A stretch of DNA of 58,184 bases, from contig CAXKVR010000186.1 in NCBI GenBank assembly GCA_964058845.1, forward strand, positions 1 through 58,184, written 5' to 3'. Within the stretch, counting starts at the first letter, position 1, and every line of letters begins with the position of its first letter. Made by a program: the position numbers and the translations under genes. The stretch is from Carex sylvatica (Eukaryota > Streptophyta > Magnoliopsida > Poales > Cyperaceae). Positions 5,166 to 44,608 of this stretch are shown here, piece by piece. The notes beneath the pieces were generated by a model that worked only from the letters and a program-made list of their open reading frames with translations, had not been told where the DNA came from and did not search any database.

Positions 5166-5232
5166 GGATCCTAGGCATTTTCGTAACGAGTTTTGATTGT
5201 GGCCACTAAACGGAGCCCATACACACAGCGCC

Positions 5233-5894
5233 ATGTGATTGTTCTGTCACCTTACTCGCTCCTTCCTCTTCTCTCTACTCATCGTTTCTATCGCCACGTT
5301 GGCCTTGGCCTCGACCTCGGTCTTCTCCAAAGATGAAGAAACCCAAATCAGCCACTTCCAACAGTACCTCTGTACCGCACACATCCCGATCTCGAGTACA
5401 CCTCCGTCGCCTTCTTTCTCCTCTCCTTGGCCAATTCCATCGGCCTTCAAACCCTGACCCTTGAATTTGTACCTAACAAGCCCCTTCTTCTTTTAACCTG
5501 GCTAGGTTCTGATCCTTCCCTCCCCTCTATCCTCCTCAACTCCCATATCGACTCCATTCCTGTCGAGCCTAACAAGTGGGTCCACCCTCCTTTCTCTGCC
5601 ACGCGGGACCCCGCCACAGGGCATATTTATGCCCGTGGTGCACAGGATGACAAGTGCATCGCCATCCAGTACCTTGAGGCGATCAGAAGTCTCAAAAAAT
5701 CCGGCTTTACACCTCTGAGGTCAATCCATATATCTCTTGTACCTGACGAGGAGATCAGCGGAGCTGATGGGGCAATGAAATTCGTACAATCAGAGGAGTT
5801 TAGAAAACTGAATCTTGGGTTAGTACTCGATGAAGGTCAGGCTTCGCTTAGAAGAGAGATGGCAATTGGCCCTCGAGTCATGGGTCACGCATGT
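5233..5894 (+). pseudogene. Aminoacylase-1 (M20) pseudogene, 5' part only
   Basis: Very similar to exon 1 of the intact gene at 8035, including its leader (CGGAGCCCA and ACACACAGCGCC before the ATG). Lesions are visible directly. Codon 2 is TGA (5236-5238) where the intact copy has TCA. About 4 bp are missing near 5370, causing a frameshift between QQYL and the following region. A deletion near 5850 removes most of the segment after the DEGQASL motif, and homology stops at about 5894, so the later exons are absent. The middle still reads cleanly and keeps metal-site motifs (SHIDS, ARGAQDD, PDEE), so decay is recent. It retains what is probably the original aminoacylase 5' flank, which the intact copy has lost. 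Confidence 0.9.
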
Positions 5895-6145
5895 TAATCC
5901 GTGAGAAGAGAGAGAAAAAACTTATTAGCTCACCTTTTACTTCTATTTTACTTCTTATTTGGCAGCGTGTGGAATAAAAAGTTTTTATAAATATTTAAAG
6001 CTGTAAGACTTCGACACCATTTTATTTGAAAAAGTAAATAATATTATATAATGAGTTGGATCTATTGATAATGAATATTTAACTATATTTACAATTAATT
6101 TGTAAATAAAAATTTAGAAGTTTCAAAAATAAAAAATATTACAAA
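5895..6145. other. AT-rich spacer
   Basis: Low-complexity AT-rich DNA between the end of aminoacylase homology and the start of the segment shared with 40337-41920. No gene or clear repeat is seen. Confidence 0.5.
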
Positions 6146-7503
6146 TATGTTATAAGACTTATGGATTGATTATGTATCAAATTCCATACAATTTTATTGT
6201 GATTTGATATCAAATGTTCGTTAAATATAAAATGTTATAAATTTAATTTGAAGTCATTTGATGAACAATAGAACTTGCATCAAGTTCCATAATTTTTTTA
6301 TGTGGATTGCATAAATGCAGTATAGATCACATTTTAAATTTCTGATTTTAAAATTATAAATTATTTATTACCATTATCAAGATTATTAAATCAGTATATT
6401 ATCAATGAATCATCTCCTATTGTACAGCAACTCTATGGTCTAATATATAAATCTTCTTAGCTATCTGCAAGTTTGGTGAGATTAAATTTTAAGGTTTGTT
6501 ACAAAATAGTGTTTGGCAAATAAATTTTAAGAAAGTGAAGAATGATGGTTTAAAATAGAGGCAAGCTTAAAAATATCAACAAAAGACAACTTAAGAAAGT
6601 GATTTTGAGTTTTACAAAGAATGTTTAACAAGCTTAAGAGGTCTAAGGAGAGCGTATAGAACTCTTTCATTTTTTGCATAAATTCAAAAATCAACATCTA
6701 AAAATAGAATAAGATTAATATCAAATATATAGAGATGGACTCTGATGCATTGCAATTTATAGATCTTCTTGTGCAGGTTACAATATTGCTATTTTACTAT
6801 TTTCAAAAATCCTAAACAAATAGCAAAAGAAATTCAAAAAAATATGTACTTTGGTGTCTAAGTACATTTTAATATGAATATTAATCTTATTCTATTTTTT
6901 ATGACTTGTAATTTGCTATAAAATATAAAAACGGTTATACATTACAATATATCATAGCTCTCTATAAAATTTGGTTAAAATTGAGGACAATATTTCGCCT
7001 TTATATAATTTTTTTTTCAGTATACAGTAGATGGGTAGACCATGTCCTCAAAATATAAAAAAACTTTACCGAGGATAAAAGTAAGAAATAGATTTATGAG
7101 AACACAAAATATATTGTGCTCAGAAATTGAGAAAGTATCCTTTGCATGATTTTGCATCAAACATGAATTGTTGAATACCGATGAAGAATTATTTTTCTGA
7201 GTCTCCAGTCAACTCTCCACCACTAGATTAAGAAGGCCCACTGGCCCAGAGATATTGTTTGTACGCCGTTTTATTTTTGTCAGAACTAAGCCCATTCAAT
7301 AAAAGCCCCAAACAAGGTCTTCCCGACCCATTCTCTTCTGCCATTTTCCTTGTCACAACTAAGCCCATTTAAATCTATAAAGGCCCAAAACAAGGTCTCC
7401 CCGACCCATTCCATGCTCTTCCCGACCCATTCTCTCGCTCCGCATCCATCCCCCTTCTAAATCTCAATCTGAAGACTAAAACCCATCACCTCTTCTCCGC
7501 CGC

Positions 7504-7660
7504 TAGGGGGTGTAACCGGTCGGATACGAATCGGATACGGATAGTAAAATGCATTATCGTGTCCGCATCCGTTATAATTTTTCGGATACGGATACGGATT
7601 GGATAATCCGGATTCAAATTCGGACGAAATCGGATATTATCCGATCCGTTTACACCCCTA
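7504..7660. mobile_element. Small hAT MITE in the captured 5' leader
   Basis: Ends are TAGGGGGTGTAACCGG and, inverted, TAGGGGTGTAAACGGATCGG. Flanks are TCCGCCGC (7496-7503) and TCTGCCGC (7661-7668), an 8-bp duplication with one later change. The duplicate locus has the empty site, CTTCTCCGCCGCTGTTACC near 41553, which proves the insertion came after the duplication or was lost from the other copy. The interior is made of repeated CGGATACGGAT blocks. It adds an upstream ATG (see findings). Confidence 0.92.
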
Positions 7661-7683
7661 TCTGCCGCTGTTACCTCTGCTGA
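7549..7683 (+). other. Upstream ORF created by the MITE
   Basis: The ATG at 7549-7551 lies inside the MITE. The frame stays open for 44 codons, crosses the right MITE end and stops with TGA at 7681-7683, 14 bases before the captured ProX start codon at 7698. The empty-site copy at 41.5 kb lacks it. Whether it is in the transcript depends on where transcription starts, which the sequence does not show. Confidence 0.5.
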
Positions 7684-7697
7684 GACGCAGAAGAGAG

Positions 7698-8034
7698 ATG
7701 GCTTACACCAAGGATCAGCTGCTCGCTCGTCTCCAGGTTTCCTTTTCTCACCTTGTAGCAATTTTTGAGGAAATAGGCTACCCAATGAGCCACAATATTT
7801 ACTTCATGATTGATTTTCACTTGTTTTAAGTTGTTTTTGGGAACGACACGGTTCCAGATGTCAATTGAGGAATTTTTTTATAATTTCTAGTGCTTTTAGT
7901 ATTGGATTGAAAATTAGTCATAACAATTTTTTTCTGGCATTGAACTCAGCTGCTGTATCCAGTTTAGTTGATAAATTTTCTCTTTTGGGTATTTGTAGGA
8001 ACTTAAAATAGACGGAGCCCACACACACAGCGCC
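7698..8034 (+). other. Captured ProX exon 1 spliced in frame to aminoacylase
   Basis: Exon 7698-7736 encodes MAYTKDQLLARLQ, identical to the start of ProX at 41596. Its donor (CAG/GTTTCC) and the acceptor (TTTGTAG/GAAC, exon from 7999) are the same as in ProX. From 7999 the reading frame is ELKI, then DGAHTHSA, then the aminoacylase ATG at 8035, with no stop and in the same frame. The predicted chimeric protein has 467 residues. The splice sites and frame are read directly; expression of the chimera is inferred. Confidence 0.7.
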
Positions 8035-11000
8035 ATGTCACTGCTCTGTCACCTCACTCGCTCCTTCCTCTTCTCTCTACTCTTCGTTTCTATCGCCACG
8101 TCGGCCTCGGTCTTCTCCGAAGATGAAGAAACCCAAATCAGCCACTTCCAACAGTACCTCCGTATCCGCACAGCGCATCCCGATCCCGAGTACACCTCCG
8201 CCGCCTCCTTTCTCCTCTCCTTGGCCGATTCCATCGGCCTTCAAACCCTGACCCTTGAATTCGTACCTAACAAGCCCCTTCTTCTTTTAACCTGGCTGGG
8301 TTCTGATCCTTCCCTCCCCTCTATCCTCCTCAACTCCCATATTGACTCCGTTCCTGCCGAGTCTGACAAGTGGGTCCACCCTCCCTTCTCTGCCACGCGG
8401 GACCCCACCACCGGGCATATTTATGCCCGTGGTGCACAGGATGACAAGTGCATCGCCATCCAGTACCTTGAGGCGATCAGAAGTCTCAAAAAATCCGGCT
8501 TTACACCTCTGAGGTCAATCCATATATCTCTTGTACCTGATGAGGAGATCGGTGGAGCTGATGGGGCAATGAAATTCGTACAATCAGAGGAGTTTAGAAA
8601 ACTGAATCTTGGGTTAGTACTCGATGAAGGTCAGGCTTCGCTTAGTGATGAATTCAGGGTATTTTATGCAGATCGATTGCCTTGGAACTTGATTGTGAAG
8701 GCAACTGGGTCCCCGGGTCATGGGTCCCGCATGTATGACGGCACAGCAATGGAGGGACTTATGGATTGTGCTGAGGCCATTGCGAGGTTTAGAGATAGCC
8801 AGTTTGATATGGTAAAGGCTGGGATTAGACCTGCTTCAGAGGTTATTTCAGTGAACCCAGTGTATATGAAGGCCGGTACTCCTAGCCCCAGTGTGAGTAA
8901 TGTTGCTGGTTTTGCTCAATTGTTTGGTTTAGTAAAGGAGTGAGGCTATGGTCATATGCATATTACAGATAGACCCGTGATATGGATCCATATCTCTATT
9001 TTCAAAGTTCAAACAGTCGATCCGACCCATTAAACATGATCTGCATATAAAAATGTACTTGCACACTAAATTTTACATTTTTTAGAAATTTTTTAACATT
9101 TTTTAGATTTTTTTTACTATTTTTTTTTAAAATAGGTAGAAAATCACTGCTTTTGGATGGTCCAGAATTTTCAAATTAAGTGATTTTCTCCCAATCTAAA
9201 AAAGTAGTAAAAAGATTTTAAAAAATGTAAAATTTTGTCACCAGGTAAATTTTCATATGAAGGTTATGTTAAACAGTTCGGATCAACTGTTTGGACTTTA
9301 AAAACGGAGATATGAATCCATAGTGCAAGTCACTGTGTAATATGCATATTACCATAGCCTTCTTAGTAAAGTGTTCATTTATTTTATAATACATTGTTAA
9401 ATGAGCTAATACAAGTCCAGTGGACTCTGAGACATGATTTACCATATTCTCGCACTAGAGTAGTTATTTCACATTGACAGAAAGACAGAACATAGTTAAA
9501 TACAGGTGTGACACACTTATTTAAATTGATTGTAAAATTAAATGGATGCAGGGTTTTGTGATGAACATGCAACCCTCAGAAGCGGAGATGGGATTTAATA
9601 TACGGCTCCCACCAACAGTACATTTAGAGCAGTTGATGGAAAGGATAAACAAAGAATGGGTGCCCGCATATAAAAACATGAGTTACATGGTAAAACATCT
9701 TTATAATTCATTTCAATGTTAATTACATCAAGTTTTGTGCTGTTAGGACATCTATAATTTTTTCTTGTGCAGTTGATTAAGTCCGGACCAGTAAGAGATT
9801 GCAATGGAAAGGTTTTGTTAACACCAGCAAATGAATCGAACCCGTGGTGGCCTGTTTTCAAACAGGCTGTTATCTCCTCGGGAAATAAGCTCGCTAAGCC
9901 TGAAATCTTGTCGTCGACTACGGATGCACGTTTCATGCGGGCGTTGGGTATCCCCACCTTTGGATTCTCCCCCATGTCCAACACTCCGATCTTACTTCAT
10001 GACCATAATGAGGTTAGCTAAATTTTCATTTCTACACACTGTTTACTTGTTAGAGATGTAAAAAAGTCACGCCTTGACCAGACCCGTCACGGCACAGCAC
10101 GGCACGTGCCGTGACCAGCATGTCCCATGCTGTGACCATTCGTGTGATGTGACCATCCTTCGGGAAATTGGCACGGTACGGTACGGCACGCGAACTGATC
10201 TGATCATGGCCCGGCACGTGGTCACACGAGTCAAGCGTGATCAGAATCTCAGATCTTTTAATGGTGAATTTCAAATAAACAAACTTAAATTACTAAAAAA
10301 ATAAGTTAAACATGACCAAAGGTAAAAAACATGTGTGGTCACGACGTGCCTTGGTCATGGTGTGACTAATGTGTCGTGACCCGTCCATCACAATTTGGTC
10401 ACAGAACGGCACGGCATGTGACCCAAGTCACGGGCTCGCGGCACGCCATGGCACGTATTTACATCCCTACTTGTAGGATATCTGGCAGTCTGGTTTGATG
10501 TTGAAATAAAAGTTCATGTCACATTTGCCCTTCCAAAAACTTAAATTATGTATCCTTCTGGTGCTGCAAGTGTCATGTTTATCTTCCTATGCTCAAAAGC
10601 TTTCAAATCTATCGCACGTGAACTTAGAAATGGGAATTACCGTGCTACTAAAGCTGTATACTTTCCTATCAAATTAAATGAAGGTCCTTTTTATTCGATA
10701 AATATCATGTCGACCTAATATCCATACTGTGGCATTAGTCCAACTTCCAAGCCAAGTTTGTCTTACAGATTAAACATATATTATTGTGAATAATTATTTT
10801 TAAAGATTGATTATAGAAGCTTGCAAGTGGAGTTATTTTAACTTCTTTTAAAAATAAAGCAATCTTAGGTTGGAAATGGATTTGTAACATTCATTCTTGT
10901 TTGCGCACTCATGTTCAATTAATCCAAGATCTGGGCTTCTTGTCTAAGTAATTTTTCCAATAATTCGATAATAAAAACATCTTGACCTTCTTGATTGAAC

Positions 11001-11537
11001 TTCTAATAAATAACAGAGACATGGCAAACCCCCATACTAGAGTTATTTTGTTTACCATAAGAATTTTGTGATTTGGTTATTATTCAGCGGAGTTGAAGAT
11101 TCAACATTTGGAGAAGGTCCGTAAAATTGTTGTAAAATATCAGAGAAAAATAAATCAGCTTAAGTATAATAATATTTGGAAAAATACAAAAGTCCATACA
11201 TATCGTCATATTTGGGCTCTTCTTGTTCTCAGCTTAGTAGGCCTATCCGAGGGGACTTTCAATATATAGATTGAATTTTGTGACACAATTCATTAAATAG
11301 TCATATTTGGTCTCTTCTTCACATTTGGAGAAGGTCAGTGAATTTTGTTCAATGTTCAAACATGACAACATGAGAACTAACAATTTTGTTACAATTTTGC
11401 TTTCTCATAACATGAGAACTAACAAGTTGGTAACACTGTTGCAGTTTTTGAAGGATGAGGTGTTTGTAAAAGGCATCAAGGTCTATGAGAGCATAATCAG
11501 TGCTTTAAGCTCCTTCAAATTAGCAAGCTCGATATAG
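8035..11537 (+). CDS. ACY1: Aminoacylase-1 (M20 family metallopeptidase)
   Basis: Exons 8035-8892, 9552-9689, 9773-10012 and 11445-11537, all phase 0, give 442 residues, the normal length for the family. It should hydrolyse N-acyl-amino acids to free amino acids using two zinc ions. Visible motifs: SHIDS (His102, Asp104), ARGAQDD (Asp136), PDEEIGG (general base Glu170 and ligand Glu171), LDEG (Glu198 region), SPGHGS, STTDARF, and LLHDHNE (His408/His410) near the end, so all key residues are present. Residues 10-25 are hydrophobic, like a signal peptide, as in other plant members. Intron 1 holds a palindromic element starting 51 bases after the donor; intron 3 holds a GTGACC-rich MITE. The native 5' flank is missing: only about 24 bases of leader precede the ATG before captured ProX sequence. 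The start at 8035 matches the family; an in-frame upstream exon may add 25 residues. Confidence 0.93.
8944..9360. mobile_element. Palindromic element (copy L) in aminoacylase intron 1
   Basis: Two arms of about 200 bp in inverted orientation: outer tip AGGCTATGGTCATATGCATA on the left matches TGCATATTACCATAGCCT on the right. The inner arm TAGGTAGAAAATCACT is the same type as in copy H. Shares the TAAATTTTACATTTTTTAG and TTTTTACTATTTTTT blocks with the family but is more diverged and lacks the TA repeats. Confidence 0.75.
10051..10469. mobile_element. GTGCCGTGACC-rich MITE in aminoacylase intron 3
   Basis: Ends TAGAGATGTAAA and, inverted, TAGGGATGTAAATACGTGCC form a short terminal inverted repeat. 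The interior is filled with variants of GGCACGTGCCGTGACC in both orientations. The tip resembles the hAT tips elsewhere in the window, but no clean 8-bp duplication can be assigned (CTTGT is shared at a small offset). Similar repeat-rich blocks lie at 19340-20065 and 47035-47390. Confidence 0.65.
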
Positions 11538-30924: not shown

Positions 30925-31533
30925 TGTTACAGTATAGTGCATGCCAGAAGGTACAATTCAAAAATTTACTGAGCACTATATATGATCTTACCATAATATG
31001 CAATCATTCACACGTAATTTATGGATCATGTCACATACATGATCTAGCAGAGTATAAAAAATCATACCTTGTCCTCTCGCGATGTGACGGGCATGGGTAC
31101 CACAAGCTGCATCTTCGCGATCTGCTCGCTCCTTCTCATCTTTCCAAAGTAGGAAAGTCGAGTGGGTGTACACTAGGGGTTAGTCGAATAACCAGCTCGC
31201 TTGACTGCTAGATCAGCGCGCCAGTCCCAATCAATATCACGCACGGCCTGATTGATCTCCAACAACAAGTTTGGATAGATCACCAACACCGATTCCCCAA
31301 TCAACACACCCAATGAATGTTATTCTCAATCCCCGTGCAAGATCACTAACCTCGTGCAACTAGTGTCCCCTGCTAATTGCTTAGATTAGGGATATTTAGA
31401 GGATACCACTTTAGTTCCAACAAGTGAACTAAATTGTGTCACACTCTAGGAACAAGCTGAATTGCTTCAGCCATCATACGAACCCAAACCATAGAGTCAA
31501 AAACTATTTTGCTCTAGAACACTAACTCTATCA
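30925..31533 (-). repeat. 5' LTR of the retrotransposon, internally deleted (609 bp)
   Basis: Matches the two ends of the 2522-bp LTR but lacks the part equivalent to 21526-23439. The junction is at 31345/31346 (GATCA joined to CTAACCTCG). Confidence 0.88.
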
Positions 31534-31826
31534 TTGGAGACCAAATTTTATATTTCTTGGATTTTTTTTTAGTATTTATTAAGATGTGTACAAAATTATT
31601 ATTTTCAGATAATTTTGGATCATTGAAAAATAATAATTTTAAAAAATTCTAAATAAATAGTAATAAATTTCAAAAAAATATAAAATTTGGTCTCCAAGTA
31701 CATTTTAATATGGACATCACGTTGAACGGTTCGGATTGACTATTTGAATTTTAAAATCACAAAAATGACTTATAAAAATATAGTGTCAAGATGTGTCACC
31801 ATAAAATGGTGTAATTGGATCCCTCA

Positions 31827-31861
<35 letters not shown>

Positions 31862-31876
<15 letters not shown>

Positions 31877-32270
31877 TGAGGGTTAAAATACACTCTCTCT
31901 TTTGTGCTCCTAACGTGCACCCTCCCCTCATGTCTTCATTTTTAAAGTTCCAATAGTCGATTCGAACCTTCCAACGTGATCTTCATATTATAATGTGCTT
32001 GAAAACCAAATTTTACATTTTTTGGGAACATTTTACTATTTTGTCAGAATTTTTGATTAAACTAAACAATAAAAAAAAAAATTCAGCAAAGTGATGATTT
32101 TTAAAAATAGTGAAAATTTCCAAAAAATGTAAAATTTGGTTTTCAAGCACATTATAATATGAAGAACACGTTGGAAGGTTCGAATTGACTATTTGAACTT
32201 TGAAAATGAAGATATGAGGAAGGGTGCACGTTAGGAGCACAAAAAGAGGGTACATTTTAACCCTCCTCAT
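31862..32270. mobile_element. Palindromic element (copy D)
   Basis: Outer tip GATGAGGGTTAAAATACACT with matching inverted right tip, TA repeats outside. It then has GCTCCTAACGTGCACCCTC on the left and its complement on the right. Mid-arm GATTCGAACCTTCCAACGTG is a diverged version of the family block. Confidence 0.85.
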
Positions 32271-32290
32271 ATATATATATATATATATAT

Positions 32291-32734
32291 AGTGAGAGAG
32301 AGAGAGAGGGGTTGGCTAAGATCAGAGTGGTAGTTCCTGAGCTTTGGTGCTATCAATTTTTTTTTTTTTTTTTTTAAAGTTCAAAACGTCGATCCGAACC
32401 GTTCAAGTTGATCTCTATATTAAAATGTGCTTGGAGACCAAATTTTATATTTTTCTGATTTTTTTTTTTACTATTTATTAAGCCACTTTGAAAATCCCTG
32501 ATCCAACAGTGGCTTCTAATTTTACTATTTTGTTAAGCCACCGTTGGATCAGCGATTTTCAAAGTGGCATAATAAATAGTAAAAAAATTCAGAAAAATAT
32601 AAAATTTGGTCTCCAAGCACATTTTAATATAGAGATCAACTTGAATGGTTCGGATCGACGTTTTGAACTTTGAAAATTGAAAAACAAATTGGTAGCACCA
32701 AAGCTCATGAACTACCACTTTGATCTTAGCCAAC

Positions 32735-32756
<22 letters not shown>
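32291..32756. mobile_element. Palindromic element (copy E)
   Basis: Outer tip GGTTGGCTAAGATCAGAGTG and GTGGTAGTTC..AGCTTTGGTGC mirrored at the right end; GA and CT tracts and TA repeats outside. Inner arm ATCCAACAGTGGC / GCCACCGTTGGAT. Mid-arm CCGAACCGTTCAAGTTGATC. Confidence 0.88.
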
Positions 32757-32770
<14 letters not shown>

Positions 32771-32771
<1 letters not shown>

Positions 32772-33197
32772 GAGTTGGACTAAAATAAGTCATGGCTTAT
32801 TTCGCGTTGGTGAACCATGGCTCATTTTAGACATTTTAAAAATTCAAACAACCAATTCGAACTGTTCATCTTGTTCTCCATATTGAAATGTGCTTGGAGA
32901 CCAAATTTTATATTTTTTGAAATTTTTTTACTATTTATTAAGCATTTTTTAAAATTGCTGATCTGATGGTCCAGAAAATTTTACTGTTTTTTACTGTTCA
33001 CAGTAAAATAGCAATTTCAAAAATGCTTAATAAATAGTACAAAAATTTCAAAAAATGTAAAATTTGATCTCCAAGCACATTTATAGAGATCACATCTAAC
33101 GGTTCAGATCCGTCGTTTGGACTTTCAAAATAAAAATACGGCGTGGAGTACAAATGCTTGGTGAGCCATAGCTCACCCAAGTCCATCTCTCTCTCTA
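32771..33197. mobile_element. Palindromic element (copy F)
   Basis: Outer tip AGTTGGACTAAAATAAGTCA with a partly matching right tip (GAGCCATAGCTCACC then CAAGTCCATCT). Mid-arm CTGTTCATCTTGTTCTCCAT; inner arm TAAGCATTTTTTAAAATTGC. TA repeats lie on both sides. Confidence 0.82.
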
Positions 33198-33800
33198 TAT
33201 ATATATATTGTGATTTCTTTTTATAATTTATTTTACTATTAAGGGTATACAAATTTATTTGGTAGCTAATTTGATAATAATTTGGGTAATGTGAATATCA
33301 TGGTCATGGTTTTTCATCTACATAAGGTTGAAAAATATTTTGTCCATAGCACACATGCTTCTTATACTTGTATGTCAAATGTTTAAATAGCGTTTATTAC
33401 GTCATAGCGAAATGATTAAAAAATAACGTTATGTCTATATTGCACCACTATAACACTATAGCGGTGCTATATATAGCGTTGTTATAGTGCGTTATTTAGA
33501 ACCCAAACTTATATTCAAAACAGTGTAATAATTAGTCCCCCTCTTATATATAATTAGTAGCCACTACCAATCATTTAAAAAAAAATCCCCCTCTTTTAAC
33601 TCCGCTTAATTCATTAATTAATCACACTCAAAAGAAAGAAATTAAAAGGTATCCTGCCTTAATCAAGAACTAATGGACATCTCCATTTTGTTAGATGTGG
33701 AGTAATGTCAATATTTGTCAGGGACCCCACCCTCAAATCCACGAAGCTTCCTTAAGCCCAACAGAATCCAATTATTTTATCCATTCAATTTAAAAGTAGA
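33198..33800. other. Spacer with decayed hAT remnant
   Basis: AT-rich DNA. Around 33381-33504 the sequence AATGTTTAAATAGCGTTTAT through GTTATTTAGAACCCAAAC, with internal CTATAGCGGTGCTATA, is a short decayed relative of the hAT element at 16453-17681. No gene seen. Confidence 0.5.
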
Positions 33801-33804
33801 CTAG

Positions 33805-34197
33805 GGTGTTTTTAAACTCACTAAAATGTTTGGTTAATTTAACTCTAAAATTTATTAAATTGATTTTAAATAACGAATCCGAACGGTTGAAATTCGCCTA
33901 CCTTATGAGTGATGCATCTACATGTGAAAATTGTAAACGTTCGAATTAATTCAGTATAAAGTCAAGCAATCAAAAAACGTTCAAAAAATGAATGCACTAA
34001 AATTAATTTATTAACCTTTTAATTTTGACCGATTAACTTTATACTAAATTAATTCAAATGTTTAAAATTTTCACATGTAGACGCATCACTCATAAAATAG
34101 GCGGATTCTAACAATTCGGATTCGTCATTTGAAACCAATTTAATGAGTTTTGAAGTTAAGCTTATCAAACACTTTGATGAGCTTAAGAACACCTTAG
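33805..34197. mobile_element. Long-TIR MITE, ACTAGGGTGTTTTTAA type
   Basis: About 190-bp inverted arms: left ACTAGGGTGTTTTTAAACTC, right inverted ACTAAGGTGTTCTTAAGCTC; within the arms CATGTGAAAATTGTAAACG and GCATCTACATGTG pair with their complements. The relative at 48950-49325 has the same arms. The long inverted arms suggest a Mutator-type MITE, but no clean target duplication was found. Confidence 0.7.
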
Positions 34198-35335
34198 TTG
34201 TACTCTCAATTTAATGTGAACAAAGAGCTTATACTACCATTATTGTTTTATTTTTATCAAAAAAAATGTGCTGGAGCATGTGCCTCTTTATACAAAAGGT
34301 ATAAGTTACATCTGGTGAGTCAAATGAAAATTTATCTCTGTCAACTCTGTGGCTGATATTTCCTTAATTAATAGTGTATGCATGTAACCTACACAGACTT
34401 TTGAGTAAGGAATTACTGCTGACAACGAATCAACTTGATTAATTTGAAAAGTTGTACTTCTAAAATTCAAAGGTTGACATGTGATCTATGTACTTTATGT
34501 ATATATTATGTACAAAAATGTTAATATTTGATGTCAAGTTTACCAGAAATCATCAAACAACTAGAAGTTTCTAATAGGTGATATTTTATTAAATATCACA
34601 TGATGTACTAAATTTAATGAAATTTGATATCCAACCCATGCATAAAACTAATAACAATTTGCAAAAAAAAATTCTATTTTTATATTTTATTTGACTTAAT
34701 TTGAAAAATATTGTCAAGAAAATTCGTCAAAAATCTCAGCCCTTTTTATTTTTTTGTCTTGCCAGTACTTTTTCATTTTGCATTGACTGTTACCACATCT
34801 CAGCTGGACAATTCAGAATGCAGTGGAGCAGTTTTTCTTTATTTTATTTAGTTTCCTTTCAATTGTAGGAACCAGGAAATGGCGACTCTTGGAATGATTA
34901 GTGTTTAGATGACAAGCCATTTGAAAATTCGAATTTGTATGTAGAATATATTTAAACAAGTTCACTTCCAACACGCATATAAAATAGTAATGAGCGCTAT
35001 CTGGATAGAAAATACAGCTAGCAATGATCAATCAATTAGGTATATATTGCAAATATATATATTATTATATTAGATAAAAAAATCAACGTTGAGCTCTCAT
35101 GCATGCGTCATGGGAAAGCATGGTTCCTCAAGTAACCTTTTATTTAGATATGTAATGAATAATTATGATAATTATATAATTTCAAGCTTATAATTGTATA
35201 TGCAAGTAACATAATACCGTTGCTTTTAATTAACCTTCAAAAAACCATAACTATTGCTTTTATTTCAGTTTGGTGAACAAATTAAAGTATAAAGCCCGGT
35301 GTGTACTATATAATAATTAAATATAATATATATAT
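34198..35335. other. AT-rich intergenic DNA
   Basis: No gene or clear repeat is recognised. Ends in a TA-rich tract that borders the next palindromic element. Confidence 0.45.
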
Positions 35336-35745
35336 AGGAATATGCTAGCATGCTATGCTATGCGTAGCATAGAAGACCTCCGTGCAATGGCTCAATATTC
35401 GACTTTTCAAAATTCTAACGGTAGATCCGAACCATTCATCTTGTTCTCCATATTAATATGTGTTTGGAGACCAAATTTTATATTTTTTGAAATTTTTTTA
35501 CTATTTTTTTAGATTTATTGAAAATCGCTGTTTTCAGCAAATCTGGACCATAAAAAAACAGCGATTTTCAATAAATCTAAAAAAATAGTAAAAAAATTCC
35601 AAAAAATATAAAATTTGGTCTCCAAACACATATTAATATGGAGAACAAGATGAACGGTTCGGATCGACCGTTAGGATTTTGAAAAGTTGAATATTGAGCC
35701 GTTGCACGGAGGCCCTCTATGCTACGCATAGCATGCTAGCATGTT

Positions 35746-35749
<4 letters not shown>
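35336..35749. mobile_element. Palindromic element (copy G)
   Basis: Outer tip GGAATATGCTAGCATGCTAT and TGCGTAGCATAGA mirrored at the right end (GCATAGCATGCTAGCATG). Mid-arm CATCTTGTTCTCCATATTAA; inner arm TTTATTGAAAATCGCTGTTT with its complement. TA repeat of about 50 bp follows (35750-35802). Confidence 0.9.
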
Positions 35750-35802
<53 letters not shown>

Positions 35803-35805
<3 letters not shown>

Positions 35806-36470
35806 TTGGCTACGGTGCTATGGGTTGCATAGAGGGCTATGGCTCAATATTGAAATTTTTAAAATCCTAACGGTCGATCCGAATCTTTCATCTTGTTCTC
35901 TATATTAATATGTGTTTAGAGACCAAATTTTACATTTTTTGAAAAAAATTTACTATTTTTTTAGATAGGTAGAAAATCAAATATCTAAATGGTGCAGAAT
36001 TTTTTAGATCAAGTGATTTTCTACTTATCTAAAAAAATAGTAAAAAATTTCCAAAAAATGTAAAATTTGGTCTCTAAACACATATTAATATAGGATTTGG
36101 CTACGGTGCTACGGCTCAATATTCGAGTTTTCAAAATCCTAATGGTCGATCCGAACCGTTCATCTTGTTCTCCATATTAATATGTGTTTGGAGACCAAAT
36201 TTTATATTTTTTGGAAAAATTTTACTATTTTTTTAGATAGGTAGAAAATCAAATATCTGAATGGTTCATAATTTTTTAGATCAAGTGATTTTCTACCTAT
36301 CTAAAAAAATAGTAAATTTTTTTCAAAAAATGTAAAATTTGGTCTCCAAACATATATTAATATAGAGAACGAGACGAACGGTTCGGATCAACTGTTAGAA
36401 TTTTAAAAACTTGAATATTGAGCCGTAGCACCGTATCCCTCTATAAAACCCATAGCACCGTAGCCAAATC
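35803..36470. mobile_element. Palindromic elements H1 and H2, composite
   Basis: Copy H1 starts at 35803 (GATTTGGCTACGGTGCTATG) and breaks off at about 36092, right after CACATATTAATATA. Copy H2 starts at 36093 with the same tip (GGATTTGGCTACGGTGCTAC) and runs to 36470. H2's right tip includes CCCATAGCACCGTAGCC, which pairs better with H1's left tip than with its own. Inner arm GATAGGTAGAAAATCA in both. Confidence 0.8.
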
Positions 36471-36489
36471 ATATATATATATATATATA

Positions 36490-36856
36490 AAAGGAGGGAT
36501 CAAGTTACAACAAATCATTTTTTATATTTTTAAAGTCCAAATCGTCGATCCAAACCGTTAGATGTGATCTCCATAATAAAATGTGCTTGGAGACCAAATT
36601 TTATATTTTTTGGAATTTGTTTACTATTTATTAAGATGGGTACAAAAACTAGTCAAATTCAGACCATTGAATTTTGTACCCATCTTAATAAATAGTAAAA
36701 AAATTCTAAAAAATGTAAAATTTGGTTTCCAAGCACATTTTATTGTGGAGATCATGTTGAACGGTTTGGATCGACGATTTGGACTTTGAAAATATAGAAA
36801 ATTATTGTTGTAACTTGTTGTAACTCAAAAATTGTTGTAACTTGATCCCTCATCTA
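36490..36856. mobile_element. Palindromic element (copy I)
   Basis: Outer tip GAGGGATCAAGTTACAACAA with inverted TTGTTGTAACTTG and TTGTAACTTGATCCCTC at the right. Mid-arm CGATCCAAACCGTTAGATGT; inner arm AAGATGGGTACAAAA. TA repeats flank both sides. Confidence 0.88.
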
Positions 36857-36873
36857 TATATATATATATATAT

Positions 36874-36879
<6 letters not shown>

Positions 36880-36910
<31 letters not shown>

Positions 36911-37313
36911 TAGGCTATGGTACATTGCAATGTATAGGTATTTTTGTGCATTGGACCATAAATCACCGATTCAAAGTCCAAATGACCGATCCAAACCGTT
37001 CATCTTGTTCTCCATATTAATATGTGCTTGGAGACCAAATTTTATATTTTTTGAAATTTTTTATTATTTATTAAGCCACTTTGAATATCGCTGATCCAAC
37101 GATAACAGTAAAATCAAAAGGCACCATTGGATCAGTGATTTTCAAAGTGGCTTAATAAATAGTAAAAAAATTTCAAAAAATATAAAAATTGGTCTCCAAG
37201 CACATATTAATATGGAGAACAAGATGAAAGGTTTGGATCGGTCATTTGGACTTTGAATCCGGTGATTTATGGTCCAATGCACAAAAATGCCTATGCATTG
37301 CAATGTACCATAG

Positions 37314-37341
<28 letters not shown>
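36880..37341. mobile_element. Palindromic element (copy J)
   Basis: GA tract, outer tip GGCTATGGTACATTGCAATG and its complement CATTGCAATGTACCATAG, CT tract. Mid-arm CCGTTCATCTTGTTCTCCAT; inner arm AAGCCACTTTGAATATCGCT with ATCCAACG. TA repeats outside. Confidence 0.9.
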
Positions 37342-37355
<14 letters not shown>

Positions 37356-37759
37356 GTAAGGCTACGCTACTTCGTGAATTAATGTTAGATATTTTAATTC
37401 GCACTTATATCTCTAGTTTAAAAGTCCAAATAGCCGATCCAAACCGTTAGATGTTTAATCTATATTAAAATGTGCTTGGAGACCAAATTTTATATTTTTT
37501 GAAATTTTTTTACTATTTATTAAGATGGTTTAAAAATTATTATTTTTATTAAAGTTCTGCACCATTAAAAAATAGCGATTTTCAAACCATCTTAATAAAT
37601 AGTAAAAAAATTCAAAAAAATATAAAATTTCGTCTCCAAGCACATTTTAACATAGATTAAACATCTAACGATTTGGATTGGCTATTTTGAACTTTAAAAT
37701 TAGAGATATGAGCGCAAATTAAAACACCCTCATTAAATCACGAAGTAGCGTAGCCTTGA
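37356..37759. mobile_element. Palindromic element (copy K)
   Basis: Outer tip AAGGCTACGCTACTTCGTGA with complement TCACGAAGTAGCGTAGCCTT. Mid-arm CCAAACCGTTAGATGTTTAA; inner arm AAGATGGTTTAAAAATTATT. TA repeats outside. It ends about 375 bp upstream of the ERF TATA box. Confidence 0.9.
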
Positions 37760-38274: not shown

Positions 38275-38919
38275 ATGGTGATGAAGAGTGAACAAAACAG
38301 TACTGTGGATTTGCTGACAACCCACACAACACCACGGATTGTCAGTAACAATGGCAAGAAATCGTCGTCGCAATACAAAGGTGTAAGGATGAGGAGTTGG
38401 GGCTCTTGGGTCTCTGAAATAAGAGCACCAAATCAAAAGACAAGAATATGGCTCGGCTCCTACTCTACGCCTGAGGCGGCCGCAAGAGCATATGATGCTG
38501 CATTGCTTTGCTTAAAAGGTTCTTCTGCGAACTTAAATTTTCCTGCTGCCATTCCTTTTCACTTGATGCCTCAAAACACCGTCATGTCGCCTAAATCAAT
38601 CCAGCGGGTGGCGGCAGCTGCTGCCAATGCTACAACAGGTGTCATTAACCAGAATGCTTCGTATGTGTCACCGTCTTCATTATCTAGTAATGCTTCTCAG
38701 TCGCCTGATTCATGCAGTGATGGTTGTTATAATGATGTTGATCAATTGGAGGATACAATATCCGAGCAGGATATCAACGGGTCTTTAATGGATTTCGAGG
38801 CATTCTTTCAGTCGCCGAAATGCATGGATTACATGTTGAACCAATGCAGTTTTTTTGCGCCTGATCCGATGGAGGATTGTGATGAGGAAGGAGAGATTAG
38901 GCTTTGGAGCTTTTGTTGA
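38275..38919 (+). CDS. ERF014: AP2/ERF transcription factor, ERF012/013/014 type
   Basis: Intronless, 214 residues. One AP2/ERF DNA-binding domain spans about residues 34-91: [16 protein letters not shown], then RIWLGSY, then [15 protein letters not shown] and ANLNFP. Position 14 of the domain is Val and 19 is Ala, the DREB-side pattern. The rest is Ser/Asn-rich, with an acidic region and the C-terminal LWSF motif (residues 210-213) seen in ERF014-type proteins, so it is probably a nuclear regulator binding DRE/GCC-like boxes. It lies just upstream of the ProX gene, as At1g44830 and At1g44835 do in Arabidopsis (from memory), which supports the symbol. A palindromic TE lies close upstream, and part of the 3' flank is repeated in inverted form 1.2 kb downstream. 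Confidence 0.9.
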
Positions 38920-39020: not shown

Positions 39021-39104
39021 TGAAGGTAGAGAAGGAATGAGAAAGGAGATCTAAGTACTAACGATAAGTAATTGATGTGTTTGTAGTAAAAAAATCAATC
39101 CTTG
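39021..39104 (+). repeat. Inverted repeat, arm 1, in the ERF 3' flank
   Basis: 84 bp including GAGAAAGGAGATCTAAGTAC and GTAATTGATGTGTTTGTAGT whose complement is at 40253-40337, with a few mismatches. It lies about 100 bp after the ERF stop codon, so within the likely 3' UTR. Confidence 0.85.
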
Positions 39105-40252
39105 TATTTTTGGATGAGTTCTGATAAAAATGTTATGGAGCTACATGTTTTAAAGCAGCTCCATGGGGTTTTTTATCAGAAGTATCTTATATGTATGTAA
39201 AATTTTATTTGGGGTATAATATATCATTTAATTTGGAGTTATGTTTTTTAATATAGAAATGCCAATTATTATTCTATTTCAAGCCAAATTTAGAAAGTCT
39301 CACTTCCTGTATGTCCTTTTTATTTTAGTGCTGTAATCAACTTTATATTAGATGGTCCCAGCAAATTCTCATAAAATTGTTAGTCAAAGATTCAAAACCT
39401 TGCACGAAAATTACTGATTGAGCGACTGTGACAATTTGGACAGTATAATGTATACTTAACTGAAAAAATTATTTTTAAAACAGAGATGAAATTCAAACTT
39501 ACCATCTCTAACTTTGACAGTATAAGCTGTTAATCAGCCCATTATGTGCTAAAGTTTAGATATATATACTAAAGAGACCATCACGTTTAACTTAAGTATA
39601 TATCTAATAATTGATAACAGTACTAATTAATATTTCTGCTGCCCCATAATTAAACCCAATAAATTATAATAAATCAAACAGATTTATCAAAAGATACGCA
39701 AATAGTTTTTCTAGAATTCATTTACAGTGTATTGTGTGTGTGTATATATATATAGCGGATCATATGTCCTAATTAAGGACCAACTGGAGACGCCTTTAAT
39801 TAGTTGATGGAGTCTGTTCACCTAAAATGAAATGGAACATACTAGAAGACCGCAACTTTTTAGTTAGACTTGGAGAGAGGGCATGAATTTGGATTGCAGG
39901 GCCCAAATTAATATTCGAAACAGAAAGAAGAATAGACTTAAGCTGGTGTTCATGTTTGATTGTAAAGTTAATATCAATTAAATTACTTATTATTATTTTT
40001 TACATCTCATTTGATAGTTGAAGCCATGATTTAATATTATTTTTGAAACTTTTAAATTTTTATTTATGAATTTTAAAATTAATTTGGGCCCTGCATGCAA
40101 TCAGTCATTTTAAAATTCATAAATAAAAATTTAAAAGTGAACAGACTGAATTTTTAAAATAAAAAAATTTAAAATTCATAAATAAAATTCATAAATAAAA
40201 ATTTTAAAATAAAATTGAAATAAAAATTTATGAATTTTAAAATGACTGATTG
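39105..40252. other. ERF 3' flank and AT-rich repeat cluster
   Basis: No gene is seen. Near 39948-40036 a Tourist-like left end (TTCATGTTTGATTGTAAAG) is visible. Between 40050 and 40256 several inverted copies of AAATTCATAAATAAAAATTT and GCAATCAGTCATTTTAAAAT form a complex AT-rich palindrome. Confidence 0.5.
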
Positions 40253-40337
40253 CAAGGATTGATTTTTTTTACTACAAACACACTAATTACTTATAGTTAG
40301 TACTTAGATCTCCTTTCTCATTCCTTCTCTACCTTCA
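40253..40337 (-). repeat. Inverted repeat, arm 2
   Basis: Complement of 39021-39104. It ends exactly where the segment shared with 6146-8010 begins, so the boundary of that duplication and this arm coincide. Confidence 0.85.
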
Positions 40338-41920
40338 TATGTTATTAGACTTATGGATTGATTATGTATCAAATTCCATACAATTTTATTGTGATTTGAT
40401 ATCAAATGTCCGTTAAATAAAAAAACGTTACAAATTTAATTTGAAGTCATTTGATGAACAATAGAACTTGCATCAAGTTCCATAATTTTTTTATGTTGAT
40501 TGCATAAATGCAGTATAGATCACATTTTAAAATTCTGATTTAAAATTATAAATTATTTATTACCACTATCAAGATTATTAAATCAGTATATTATTAATGA
40601 ATCATGTCCTATAATACAATAGAAAGGGTGTTTGGCAACAAAATTTTAAGAAAGTGAAGAATGATGGCTTAAAATAGAGACAAGCTTAAAAATATGGGCA
40701 AAAGACAACTTAAGAAAGTGATTTTGAGTTTTGCAAAAAAACAAGTGTTTGACAAACTTAAGAGGTCTAAGTAGAGCGTGTAGAACTCTTTTATTTTTTG
40801 CAACAAATTCCAAATGAACATCTAAAAATGGAATAAGATTAATATCAAATATATAGAGATGGACTATGATGCATTGCAATGTATAGATCTTCTTGTGCAA
40901 GTTACAATAGTGTTGGTTTACTATTTTCAAAAATCCTAAACAAATAGCAAAAAAAATTAAAAAAATATGAAATTTGGTCTCCAAACACATTTTAATATGG
41001 ATATTAATCTTGTTCCATTTTTAGTGACTTTTAATTAGCTACAAAATATAAAAAGCTTATGCATTACAATACACTATAGCCCTCTATAAAACCTGGTCAA
41101 AATTGAGGACGATATTTCGCCTTTATATACTTTTTTTTTCAGTACTCGGTAGATGGGTAGACCATGTCCTCAAAATATAAAAACCTTAACCGAGGATGAA
41201 AGTAAGAAATATATTTATGAGAATACAAAATATATTGTGCTCAGAAATTGAGAATAAGTACCCTTTGTATGATTTTGCATCAAACATGAATTGTTGAATA
41301 CCGATGAAGAATTATTTTTCTAGTCTTTAGGTTAAAACTTAAAAGCCCAAAGTTCCACCACTAGATTAAGAAGGCCACTGGCCCAGATATATTGTTTGTA
41401 CGCAGTTTTCCTTTCTCAGAATTAAGCCCATTTAAATCCATAAAGGCCCCAAACAAGGTCTTCCCGACCCATTCCATGCTCTTCCCGACCCATTCTCTCG
41501 CTCTGCGTCCACCCCCCTTGTAAATCTCAATCTAAAGACTAAAACCCATCACCTCTTCTCCGCCGCTGTTACCTCTGCTGAGACGAAGAAGAGAGATGGC
41601 TTACACCAAGGATCAGCTGCTCGCACGTCTCCAGGTTTCCTTTTCTAACCTTGTAGCAATTTTTGAGGAAATAGGCTACCAAATGAGCTACAATATTTAT
41701 TTCATGATTGATTTTCACTTGTTTTAAGTTGTTTTTGGGAACGACACGGTTCCAGATGTCAATTGAGGAATTTTTTTTATAATTTCTAGTGCTTTTAGTA
41801 TTGGATTGAAAATTAGTCTTAACAATTATTGATGCTTTTTTTTCTGGCATTGAACTCAGCTGCTGTATCCAGTTTAGTTGATAAATTTTCTCTTTTGGGT
41901 ATTTGTAGGAACTTAAAATA
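40337..41920 (+). repeat. Source copy of the ProX 5' region duplicated at 6146-8010
   Basis: Contains the ProX upstream region, exon 1, intron 1 and the start of exon 2. It lacks the 157-bp MITE found in the other copy. The native gene continues past 41920 here, so this is the parent or closest to it. Confidence 0.88.
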
Positions 41921-44608
41921 GAGTTATTGTCATGTGACCATCCTGCTGTAATGACAGTTGAAGAACAGGTAAGAAATCTATTACTTATATGTTTTGTACA
42001 GGTAATTAAATTATTGATTTTGTTAATGGTTTGTTTGTCTATAGGCGAAGTATGTCGGGCATTTGGGCGGTGCATGTAGCAAAAACCTATTTTTGAAGGT
42101 AAAATTGCTCAAGTTCTAACATGGATAGTTTGAGATTCTAGTAATCCTAGCTAATTTTCGTTATTATTTTTTATCAGGACAAGAAGCACAGATTGTATAT
42201 AGTTTCTGCCCTTGCGAATACCAAAGTTGACTTGAAGAGTACTTATTCCTTTTCTTATTTATTTCTCTTCTGATCAATTTATGCATTACATTTTCTAGAA
42301 TAATGCAATTTTTTTTTTTTTTTTGCAGTTCTGTCCCAGCGGCTCGGCTTGGGAAAAGGAGGTCTTCGCATGGCCCCAGAGGAAGCTTTGCCAGAAATAC
42401 TCCATGTTAGTTTAATACAATAACTTTATTTATTAAAATAATTATTCTGATTTGTTATCACATTTCATTTCTCTTAAAAAGCAAAAAAAAACTCGTGAGA
42501 TTTTTTTCTTTTTATTTCCAGGTGGCATTAGGTTCTGTGACTCCATTTGCCTTAATAAACGAATCTGCAAGGTAATTCAAATCTCTGTACTTCACCATGT
42601 AGAATGCAAATTATTATATTATTTAATTTGAATAATTGCTGAGTACTATATTAGTTCATTGCAGACCTGTATCTCTGTTGTTAGATAAGGGGTTTAAATT
42701 GCAGCAGTATTGCTTATTCCATCCCCTCACAAATGAAGTCACAATTGGTAAAGATTTTGCATAGCAATGTTTTATTCTCTAAACTTTAGGCAAAAATAGA
42801 TGACAGTATATTACTCTGAAATATGAATTTGAAAATCTGACATGGTTTAATTTGTCAGCTCTAACCCCAAGCGACTTTGATAAATTTCTACTTTCAATCG
42901 GGCGTGAACCAGCTTATGTAGACCTGGAGGTGATCTATTTGTTGATAAACTAAAAAATTTTACATCACATCTTACTAGATTTGTTTACTTATTGATATAT
43001 TATTTGTTTTTGTACTAGGATTGCCCAGCTGTTGGGAAGGAAAATCCACCTGACCTCGCGCACTTGGTACCAGATGAAGCTCCAAATGTGCCAGGAGGAG
43101 CAGATAAAGTACCCCCAACAAGTGTTCCTGCTCAGACCAATGCTGCCAAGGATGAGAAAACAAAACAATCTACTGGTAAAGACTGTTTTTCTTATTTTTG
43201 TAATTATGATTTTCTCCCCTTAACACTACATTGAGGTGAATTATTATGTCTGCTCCTAAAGGTATTGTAAGTATACCTTTGAAAAAATTGGAATACCTGA
43301 TATGCCCTGTAGAATATTGGAAGCATCATGGCCAAGGGCGGAACTAGAAAATTTAAGTGGGGGGGGGGTGCTAATCTATAAAATGTAATATGTGAAAAAG
43401 ACAACATAACAACTAGAACTCAAACCACTAGACTACTAACAAACATTTGTTATTTTATGAGGGGTGCTAGACTATATAAAAGTTTAATTAAAGTTAATAT
43501 ACATAATTAAGAATTTTAAAATCATAGAGTGGCTTAGCACCCCCTGATCTATACATAAATCGCCCCTGATCATGGCATCGGGTCTGGATCCTTTAAAGTA
43601 ACTCAAAATTTGAGTTTGGATCTGGGCGGTCTGATTAGAATCCGGACCAATCCAGCCTGATCAGACAGTCAGGATCCAAACACAAACTTTGAATTACTTT
43701 AGGGGATCCTAATTCCATGGCATCACCTACCTGTCTCTTCTCTGAGTCTCTCTGTTTCTTGAAAGAAATACTCCCAAATAACCCCTCCACTATTTAATGT
43801 AATTTTAGACTTGTTGACAAAGGAGGGCCATTTTGTTATCCTAAAAATTAGGAAATTTAAGACTTTAGTTGATTTGTTCTGTTTTGTGGGACACCCTCGA
43901 TGGTTTCTATTGTTGCAGCCTTGCAGGAGTACGCATCATTATTTTTTTATGGTGCTTTTGTGATAGTTATATTTATTTATACAATTATTATTTCTCTGTG
44001 CGTGTGATTTACTTTTTGTAAACACAAAATCACTCCGTACCGAACCTTCAAAAAAAAAAATCACTACGTACCGATTATCCATACCATTTTTTGTAATTTT
44101 CAGAAAAACCCAAGGAGCCATCAAAAGTGCTGAAACAAAAATCTGAGAAAGACAAACCACAGATTAAAGTAGATGTGGCAGCCGACACGACTAATGTGGA
44201 GAAATTTGTAGAGAAAGTCTTTGAAAAGGTTTCCTCAGAATTTATATCGGAGGCAAGTTAAATTTATCTCAATATGTTTCATTTTGGTGTTTGTGATAAA
44301 CTATGTTATTTATTTGACTAAGTCTAATTTGACAGCTGATGAAGCAATCTAATGCTGATAAAGACAACATTTATGATCATGCGTTTGAAGGGCTAAAACA
44401 GCGTGTTTGTTCTGATCTATTGAGTATGACTGTAAGTATATACTTATTAATATTTTGATTGAGTGTGTGAACTTTATCCCATTTAAGTTAGGTCTCTGAT
44501 ATGAAATGTAATTTGGTGCAGATGACTTTGAAGAATTCAGTATATACTCAAGGATTTCATGCTGGAATTGAGAGCACACTCTATCCACTTCTTAACAAGA
44601 GGAAATAA
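41596..44608 (+). CDS. Prolyl-tRNA editing protein ProX/YbaK type (tRNA_edit domain)
   Basis: Twelve exons: 41596-41634, 41909-41968, 42045-42098, 42178-42238, 42329-42405, 42522-42571, 42665-42747, 42859-42929, 43019-43175, 44104-44252, 44336-44431, 44522-44608; 327 residues. Family role: hydrolysis of wrongly aminoacylated tRNA-Pro in trans. Residues about 1-165 form the tRNA_edit fold (AKYVGHLGGACSKNLFLKDK, then GLGKGGLRMAPEEAL, ALGSVTPFAL, FHPLTNEVTI, LLSIGREPAYVDLE). The rest is a Pro/Lys-rich linker and a plant-type C-terminal helical tail of unknown role. Intron 10 has a GC donor (GAG/GCAAGT at 44253); using the only nearby GT alternatives either skips eight residues or gives a stop. 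Intron 9 holds two MITEs. Matches At1g44835 in kind and neighbourhood. Confidence 0.93.
43333..43568. mobile_element. hAT MITE in ProX intron 9, CAGGGGCGGA type
   Basis: Ends CAAGGGCGGAACTAG and inverted CAGGGGCGATTTATG. ATCATGGC flanks both ends (43325-43332, 43569-43576), a perfect 8-bp duplication. 236 bp, no coding capacity; a G run of 10 is inside. Confidence 0.9.
43580..43715. mobile_element. MULE-like MITE in ProX intron 9
   Basis: Ends GGATCCTTTAAAGTAACTCA and inverted GGATCCCCTAAAGTAATTCA. CATGGCATC flanks both sides (43571-43579, 43716-43724), a 9-bp duplication. Same tip as the elements at 16065-16444. Its left flank overlaps the right flank of the neighbouring hAT MITE. Confidence 0.85.

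Follow-up and report, generated by a model that had tools for sequence, protein, structure and literature searches.

Tandem duplications create chimeric genes with changed expression in Drosophila yakuba (Rogers et al., 2017, PMC5460883), and the fusion genes of Oryza arise after duplication of one or both parents, with a Type I class that includes parents that lie close together on a chromosome (Zhou et al., 2022, PMC9199173). Here we describe a locus of this kind in the sedge Carex sylvatica, on a stretch of 58,184 nucleotides (contig CAXKVR010000186.1 of assembly GCA_964058845.1, positions 1 to 58,184 of the forward strand), which we call the window. Within it, an aminoacylase gene (copy A2) is preceded by a copy of the 5′ end of ProXp-ala, whose parental gene lies further along the same contig. 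We consider that this chimeric gene probably formed at the junction of a local tandem duplication that was followed by a deletion, and that A2 then took over from a sister copy (A1). Its parts are the following.

6145..7697, + strand: copied ProXp-ala upstream region and leader, 87-95% identical in pieces to 40337-41595
7698..7736, + strand: chimeric exon 1 from ProXp-ala, MAYTKDQLLARLQ, with 1 synonymous difference in 39 bases against 41596-41634
7737..7998, + strand: copied ProXp-ala intron 1, with 5 differences in 262 aligned bases and 2 gaps against 41635-41908; splice sites identical
7999..8892, + strand: chimeric exon 2, made of ProXp-ala exon 2 (7999-8012, 14 bases), aminoacylase leader (8013-8034, about 22 bases) and aminoacylase from its native Met8035
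9552..9689, + strand: aminoacylase exon
9773..10012, + strand: aminoacylase exon
11445..11537, + strand: last aminoacylase exon, with the stop codon

The block at 6145-8012 (the ProX block) derives from 40337-41922, from which it has diverged; that parental segment comprises the ProXp-ala upstream region, exon 1, intron 1 and the first 14 bases of exon 2. It matches this parent in four pieces of 87-95% identity.

6145-6426, matching 40337-40618: piece 1, 95%
6509-7333, matching 40628-41474: piece 2, 87%
7344-7504, matching 41406-41567: piece 3, 93%
7661-8012, matching 41559-41922: piece 4, 94.5%

Over 1488 aligned bases, block and parent show 102 base differences and 10 gaps. A search with the block of the assembly, which holds 64.0 Mb in 950 contigs, gave a best E-value of 2.1e-296, and the matches between block and parent are far beyond chance. 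It listed 82 matches (40 of 577 candidates were scored): five correspond to the block and its parent, 76 to parts of a transposable element considered below, and one, of 126 bases, lies on contig C70. Identity to ProXp-ala ends and the aminoacylase 5′ leader begins at 8012/8013, with about one base of exact overlap. An earlier, sequence-only reading of the locus had 12 bases of exon 2 copied; the copy does reach exon 2, and the identity in fact runs 14 bases into it (GAACTTAAAATAGA). The donor CAG^GTTTCC (7736) and the acceptor TTTGTAG^GAA (7999) are the same in the parent, where intron 1 is supported by the ProXp-ala of Carex rostrata, which reads MAYTKDQLLARLQELKIEF across it. When exons 7698-7736, 7999-8892, 9552-9689, 9773-10012 and 11445-11537 are joined, the product has 467 residues and contains no internal stop, which bears out the 7736/7999 splice sites and the in-frame join proposed earlier; left unspliced, the frame from 7698 meets a stop after 43 codons. 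ProXp-ala supplies 17 residues of the chimera and no domain, and the predicted extension before the native Met is 25 residues, with ELKIDGAHTHSA... as an example of the predicted N-terminal peptide. Preservation of the frame at the junction was considered as a sign of selection and dropped: since an open frame results from 767 of 3660 breakpoint pairs (one break in ProXp-ala exon 2, the other in the final 60 bases of the aminoacylase leader), an in-frame join is unremarkable by itself.

Both parents can be recognized in the window, together with a gene that lies between them.

41596..44608, + strand: parental ProXp-ala gene, intact, 12 exons, 327 residues; PF04073 (tRNA_edit), 1.6e-27
38275..38919, + strand: AP2/ERF gene between both parents; PF00847, E 1.5e-12; single in the assembly

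The assignment of the downstream parent to ProXp-ala follows from the presence of the editing domain PF04073 and from close plant relatives of the same kind, as the protein is 97% identical to a YbaK-domain protein of Carex rostrata (P0121) and 86% to a protein of Rhynchospora pubera. We also note an apparent GC-AG intron in this gene at 44253 (GAG^GCAAGT), with which the Carex rostrata protein is consistent. On the + strand the order is aminoacylase, ERF, ProXp-ala, so the arrangement is that expected of a tandem duplication, with linked parents on the same strand and a junction at which the upstream gene has received the 5′ end of the downstream one. To follow the linkage outside Carex sylvatica, we matched by hand 29 taxa present in both protein lists (the best 120 of 1707 and the best 120 of 1011). 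The longest contigs listed for aminoacylase and ProXp-ala are of equal length in seven of them (Typha, Tasmannia, Vitis, Nelumbo, two Aristolochia and Canavalia), and in Vitis rotundifolia the pair carries the gene tags 023301 and 023303. The linkage of the two genes thus looks old.

According to the favoured reading, a tandem duplication of about 33.9 kb, with breakpoints in the aminoacylase leader (8012/8013) on the left and in ProXp-ala exon 2 (41922) on the right, would have given the order old flank-A1 ... ERF′ ... ProX5′-A2 ... ERF ... ProXp-ala. A subsequent deletion would have taken out the first ERF copy together with spacer DNA and the end of A1, so that an A1 remnant with the old flank stayed at 5207-5893, while A2 would have taken over and been kept under purifying selection. 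The sequence-only reading spoke of a captured promoter; it described the structure correctly, and the origin is better read as the tandem-duplication junction of two linked genes. Several observations weigh against this proposal. A duplicated ERF was not found, the gene and the ERF-ProXp-ala interval being single in the assembly apart from an 85-bp inverted piece and short matches, and the remainder of A1 was not found in the assembly either; because both are absent from it, a deletion must be assumed. The longest contigs differ in 22 of the 29 taxa, including Rhynchospora and all grasses matched. The assembly is probably incomplete, as the Rpb1 domain family gave one weak match and none above the cut-off (introns may lower such scores), and a further working aminoacylase whose 5′ end is normal may be present in the plant. 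Moreover, no Carex aminoacylase is listed among the best 120 proteins when the full length is searched (proteins of 257-817 residues), or when the N-terminal 147 residues are searched against proteins of 81-257 residues, unlike the Carex rostrata ProXp-ala, which is listed in the protein search. In Carex, the aminoacylase gene may lack an annotation, be broken or have an odd gene model.

The absence of a first ERF copy from the assembly agrees with an origin in a single round of replication with template switches, from the aminoacylase gene at about 8734 to the ProXp-ala upstream region, on into exon 2 and back to the aminoacylase leader, which would yield the same final order with no need for a 34-kb duplication or a deletion. 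In the parent, 85 bp of the ERF 3′ region are present as an inverted copy (39021-39104 to 40337-40253, 95.3%) that ends, to the base, at the left edge of the ProXp-ala homology. Complex rearrangements can leave such a trace, but the copy may also stem from a separate, later event. Template switching further requires several junctions in one event and leaves the spacer between A1 and the ProX block unexplained, and we regard it as unlikely. Tandem duplication followed by deletion remains the origin that we favour.

The sister copy and the spacer lie immediately upstream of the ProX block.

5207..5893, + strand: truncated aminoacylase copy A1, a pseudogene (ATG at 5233) disrupted by an in-frame TGA, a shift of frame and, after 5851, an internal deletion; it ends at about 5893
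5894..6144, no strand assigned: spacer between A1 and the ProX copy, a probable deletion scar

Of the two parents, ProXp-ala is intact, and the second aminoacylase copy remains only as 5207-5893. Its stretch 5207-5851 is 93% identical to 8009-8645; the segment 5233-5427 holds a single TGA, and the next matching stretch is in another frame. The sequence upstream of A1 is probably the original aminoacylase 5′ flank, which supports the earlier proposal that the pseudogene at 5233 keeps it. The 156 codons that can be compared between A1 and A2 show 10 amino-acid changes and 6 synonymous ones. With Rhynchospora as the reference, seven of the ten amino-acid differences fall on the A1 side, one on the A2 side and two are ambiguous, although seven against one is a small sample. 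At the base level (5209-5851), 21 of 32 differences are C-to-T or G-to-A on the A1 side when A2 is taken as ancestral; in the ProX copy, with the parent taken as ancestral, the same classes make up 37 of 102. The A1 changes fit decay under cytosine methylation, as would be expected of a silenced copy. A possible templated filler in A1 from the ProXp-ala start-codon region was rejected, as the apparent 14-base match is, by eye, partly accounted for by aminoacylase sequence. As for the spacer, the listed genome matches (very common words were skipped) contain no source other than itself, and within the window it shows weak AT-rich similarities, the best of them to 40037-40072 in inverted orientation.

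From Met8035, A2 encodes 442 residues that score 562.6 bits against TIGR01880 (cut-off 338.6) over positions 6-401 of the 401 in the model, which places the predicted protein in the aminoacylase-1 family (N-acyl-aliphatic-L-amino acid amidohydrolase). It matches both chains of PDB entry 1q7l, human aminoacylase-1 (2.2e-55 and 7.7e-21), and its closest listed homologue, among the best 120, is that of Rhynchospora pubera (85%). We compared it with 116 of the 120 fetched aminoacylases, four being left out for their length: A2 departs from the family at three of 143 nearly invariant columns, and single homologues do so at 0 to 7. The chance that its frame would have stayed open was computed assuming no selection, with rates taken from the ProX block, from its intron or from the A1/A2 comparison. 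With every indel taken to break the frame, it is 0.003 or 0.004 with the rates of the block or its intron, and 0.045 with the A1/A2 rates; a rerun was similar. Allowing half of the indels to keep the frame raises the latter to 0.13, although none of the 10 gaps in the ProX block has a length divisible by three. A2 is thus probably the working copy; it seems to be under constraint, and the copy that kept the old flank is decaying. One could still suppose that A2 was recently silenced and that the plant depends on another aminoacylase copy, as its native promoter is lost, the assembly is probably partial and no aminoacylase of Carex is among the proteins listed. Such a silencing is nevertheless rather improbable, given the open frame of 442 codons, the canonical splice sites and the few amino-acid changes on the A2 side, even if a frame free of selection would remain open with a probability of 0.004 to 0.13. 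As a side observation, intron 2 of the aminoacylase contains a fold-back repeat (8943-9360) with many relatives at 31500-37700 of the window, in both orientations and at about 67-82% identity, probably a family of miniature inverted-repeat transposable elements (MITEs).

Divergence is not uniform along the copies. In the ProX copy it amounts to 0-3 differences per 100 bases in exon 1 and intron 1 and reaches 15 in the upstream region; set against 71 of 694 in the mid-upstream part, the 1 of 39 in exon 1 and 5 of 262 in intron 1 give a p of 3e-6. Between A1 and A2 it goes from 6.7% to 1.3% along the alignment. Constraint or gene conversion would account for this pattern. The spread, from 1.3% to 11% among pieces of more than 100 bases, also tells against the proposed origin, insofar as a single event cannot be cleanly dated from it. 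An attempt to date the duplication in years was dropped on account of this spread, and because divergence is so uneven we assign no age to the duplication.

The copied leader has been altered further, in a way that bears both on the integrity of the locus and on its expression.

7504..7660, no strand assigned: hAT-like MITE of 157 bp in the copied leader, with terminal inverted repeats at 7507-7519 and 7646-7658 (92%)
7549..7683, + strand: potential upstream open reading frame (uORF) of 44 codons that starts within the MITE and is not in frame with Met7698; its stop codon is 7681-7683

The element is flanked by a target-site duplication in which 7 of 8 bases are alike (7496-7503, TCCGCCGC; 7661-7668, TCTGCCGC), the parent has the empty site at 41554-41573, and 76 matching pieces occur in other contigs among the matches listed. 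Inverted ends, an 8-bp target-site duplication and dispersed relatives make it a MITE, which we take to belong to the hAT superfamily from the length of the duplication and the terminal repeats. It is 37 bases 5′ of the Met7698 ATG, and it would have entered the leader later than the duplication. A further change is the internal duplication 7277-7333/7350-7411 in the copied promoter; the piece concerned, which contains GCCCA, occurs once in the parent. The copied promoter is thus not intact. The MITE also bears on whether the assembly joined diverged haplotypes. An average difference of no more than about 5-7% between the copies would suit such an artefact, but the window contains no N, the junction links unrelated sequences that overlap exactly by about one base, and the MITE has a near-perfect target-site duplication, its site in the parent being empty. 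The 102 differences, the 10 gaps and the inserted element make it unlikely that identical copies were simply mis-joined, and we consider a false join of diverged haplotypes very improbable.

In the chimeric gene that we propose, transcription would begin in the ProXp-ala-derived upstream region, intron 1 would be spliced as in ProXp-ala, and translation would start from Met7698 (467 residues), from the native Met8035 (442 residues) or from both. The MITE-borne uORF has an ATG with A at -3, ends 14 bases 5′ of Met7698 and is present only in the copy; a second uORF of 15 codons, farther upstream, is common to copy (7413) and parent (41476). When folded, the leader of the copy (267 bases) gave -91.5 kcal/mol and a z of -4.0, compared with -20.6 kcal/mol and -0.06 for that of the parent (104 bases). 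If transcription starts 5′ of the MITE, the uORF and the strong hairpin in the leader would favour Met8035: initiation at Met7698 should then be hindered, and the next start, Met8035, would give the normal protein. The expectation that A2 is expressed like ProXp-ala is correspondingly weakened by a leader MITE with a structured element and an out-of-frame uORF. Met8035 has a usable start context and is followed by the normal hydrophobic N-terminus. In the longer form the hydrophobic stretch is unchanged and lies 25 residues further in, with its peak at residues 36-47 rather than 11-22. Targeting may be disturbed by a long n-region, or may tolerate it. The firm change would thus be one of gene control, and a changed N-terminus or targeting is possible.

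These features leave a substantial, though lesser, chance that A2 transcripts start in the copied intron 1 or just 5′ of 8035, so that ProXp-ala exon 1 goes unused and the normal 442-residue protein is made. Besides the context and N-terminus kept by Met8035 and the interruption of the copied leader by a MITE with a uORF, it would agree with the fact that none of the 120 aminoacylase homologues has a ProXp-ala-like N-terminus (one loose internal match, in P0096, looks like chance). On the other hand, exon 1, the splice sites and intron 1 are among the best-kept parts of the copy (p 3e-6, as above), which argues for their use, even if gene conversion could also explain it. An unused exon 1 is compatible with either origin, tandem duplication or template switching. 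A much bolder proposal is that the only working aminoacylase-1 of this lineage is under the promoter of a translation-fidelity gene, and that Met7698 and Met8035 give two differently targeted enzymes in a balance set by the MITE uORF. We regard this as a long shot; if true, a transposon insertion would partly repair an N-terminus altered by duplication.

The type of event, a chimeric gene formed via tandem duplication, is already known, and the sedge aminoacylase is a new instance of it. Its value lies in the fact that one contig contains the two parents, a sister copy in decay and the empty site of the MITE, so that the replacement of a promoter by local duplication can be read from it. The case can serve to test how often it is the chimera that survives and not the complete parent copy, and how the location and amount of the enzyme respond to a MITE uORF and to 25 extra residues ahead of a signal peptide. 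Our literature search, which left most subscription journals outside its scope, found nothing relevant on aminoacylase in Carex or on such a fusion in sedges, and nothing specific on a MITE with a uORF. The closest described systems differ from the locus in the following ways. As in the D. yakuba chimeras, one gene acquires the 5′ end of another at a duplication break, and with it new control sequences (PMC5460883); those chimeras are polymorphic and their expression has been measured, whereas the one in the sedge is about 5-7% diverged, has a decayed second aminoacylase copy and is predicted from sequence. Unlike the Oryza fusions (PMC9199173), the ProXp-ala part adds 17 residues without a domain, and the exchange is mainly one of 5′ regulatory sequence. 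The plant ProXp-ala At1g44835 (PMC9425024) represents the kind of gene that supplied the copied 5′ part, and the sedge parent has the tRNA_edit domain and a long C-terminal part; unlike At1g44835, the chimera is without any ProXp-ala editing domain. Like plant aminoacylase-1, for example ZmACY-1 (PMC8343404), A2 is predicted to be a complete catalytic protein of the TIGR01880 family, and it departs from these enzymes in its predicted 25-residue extension before a signal-like N-terminus and in its foreign promoter.

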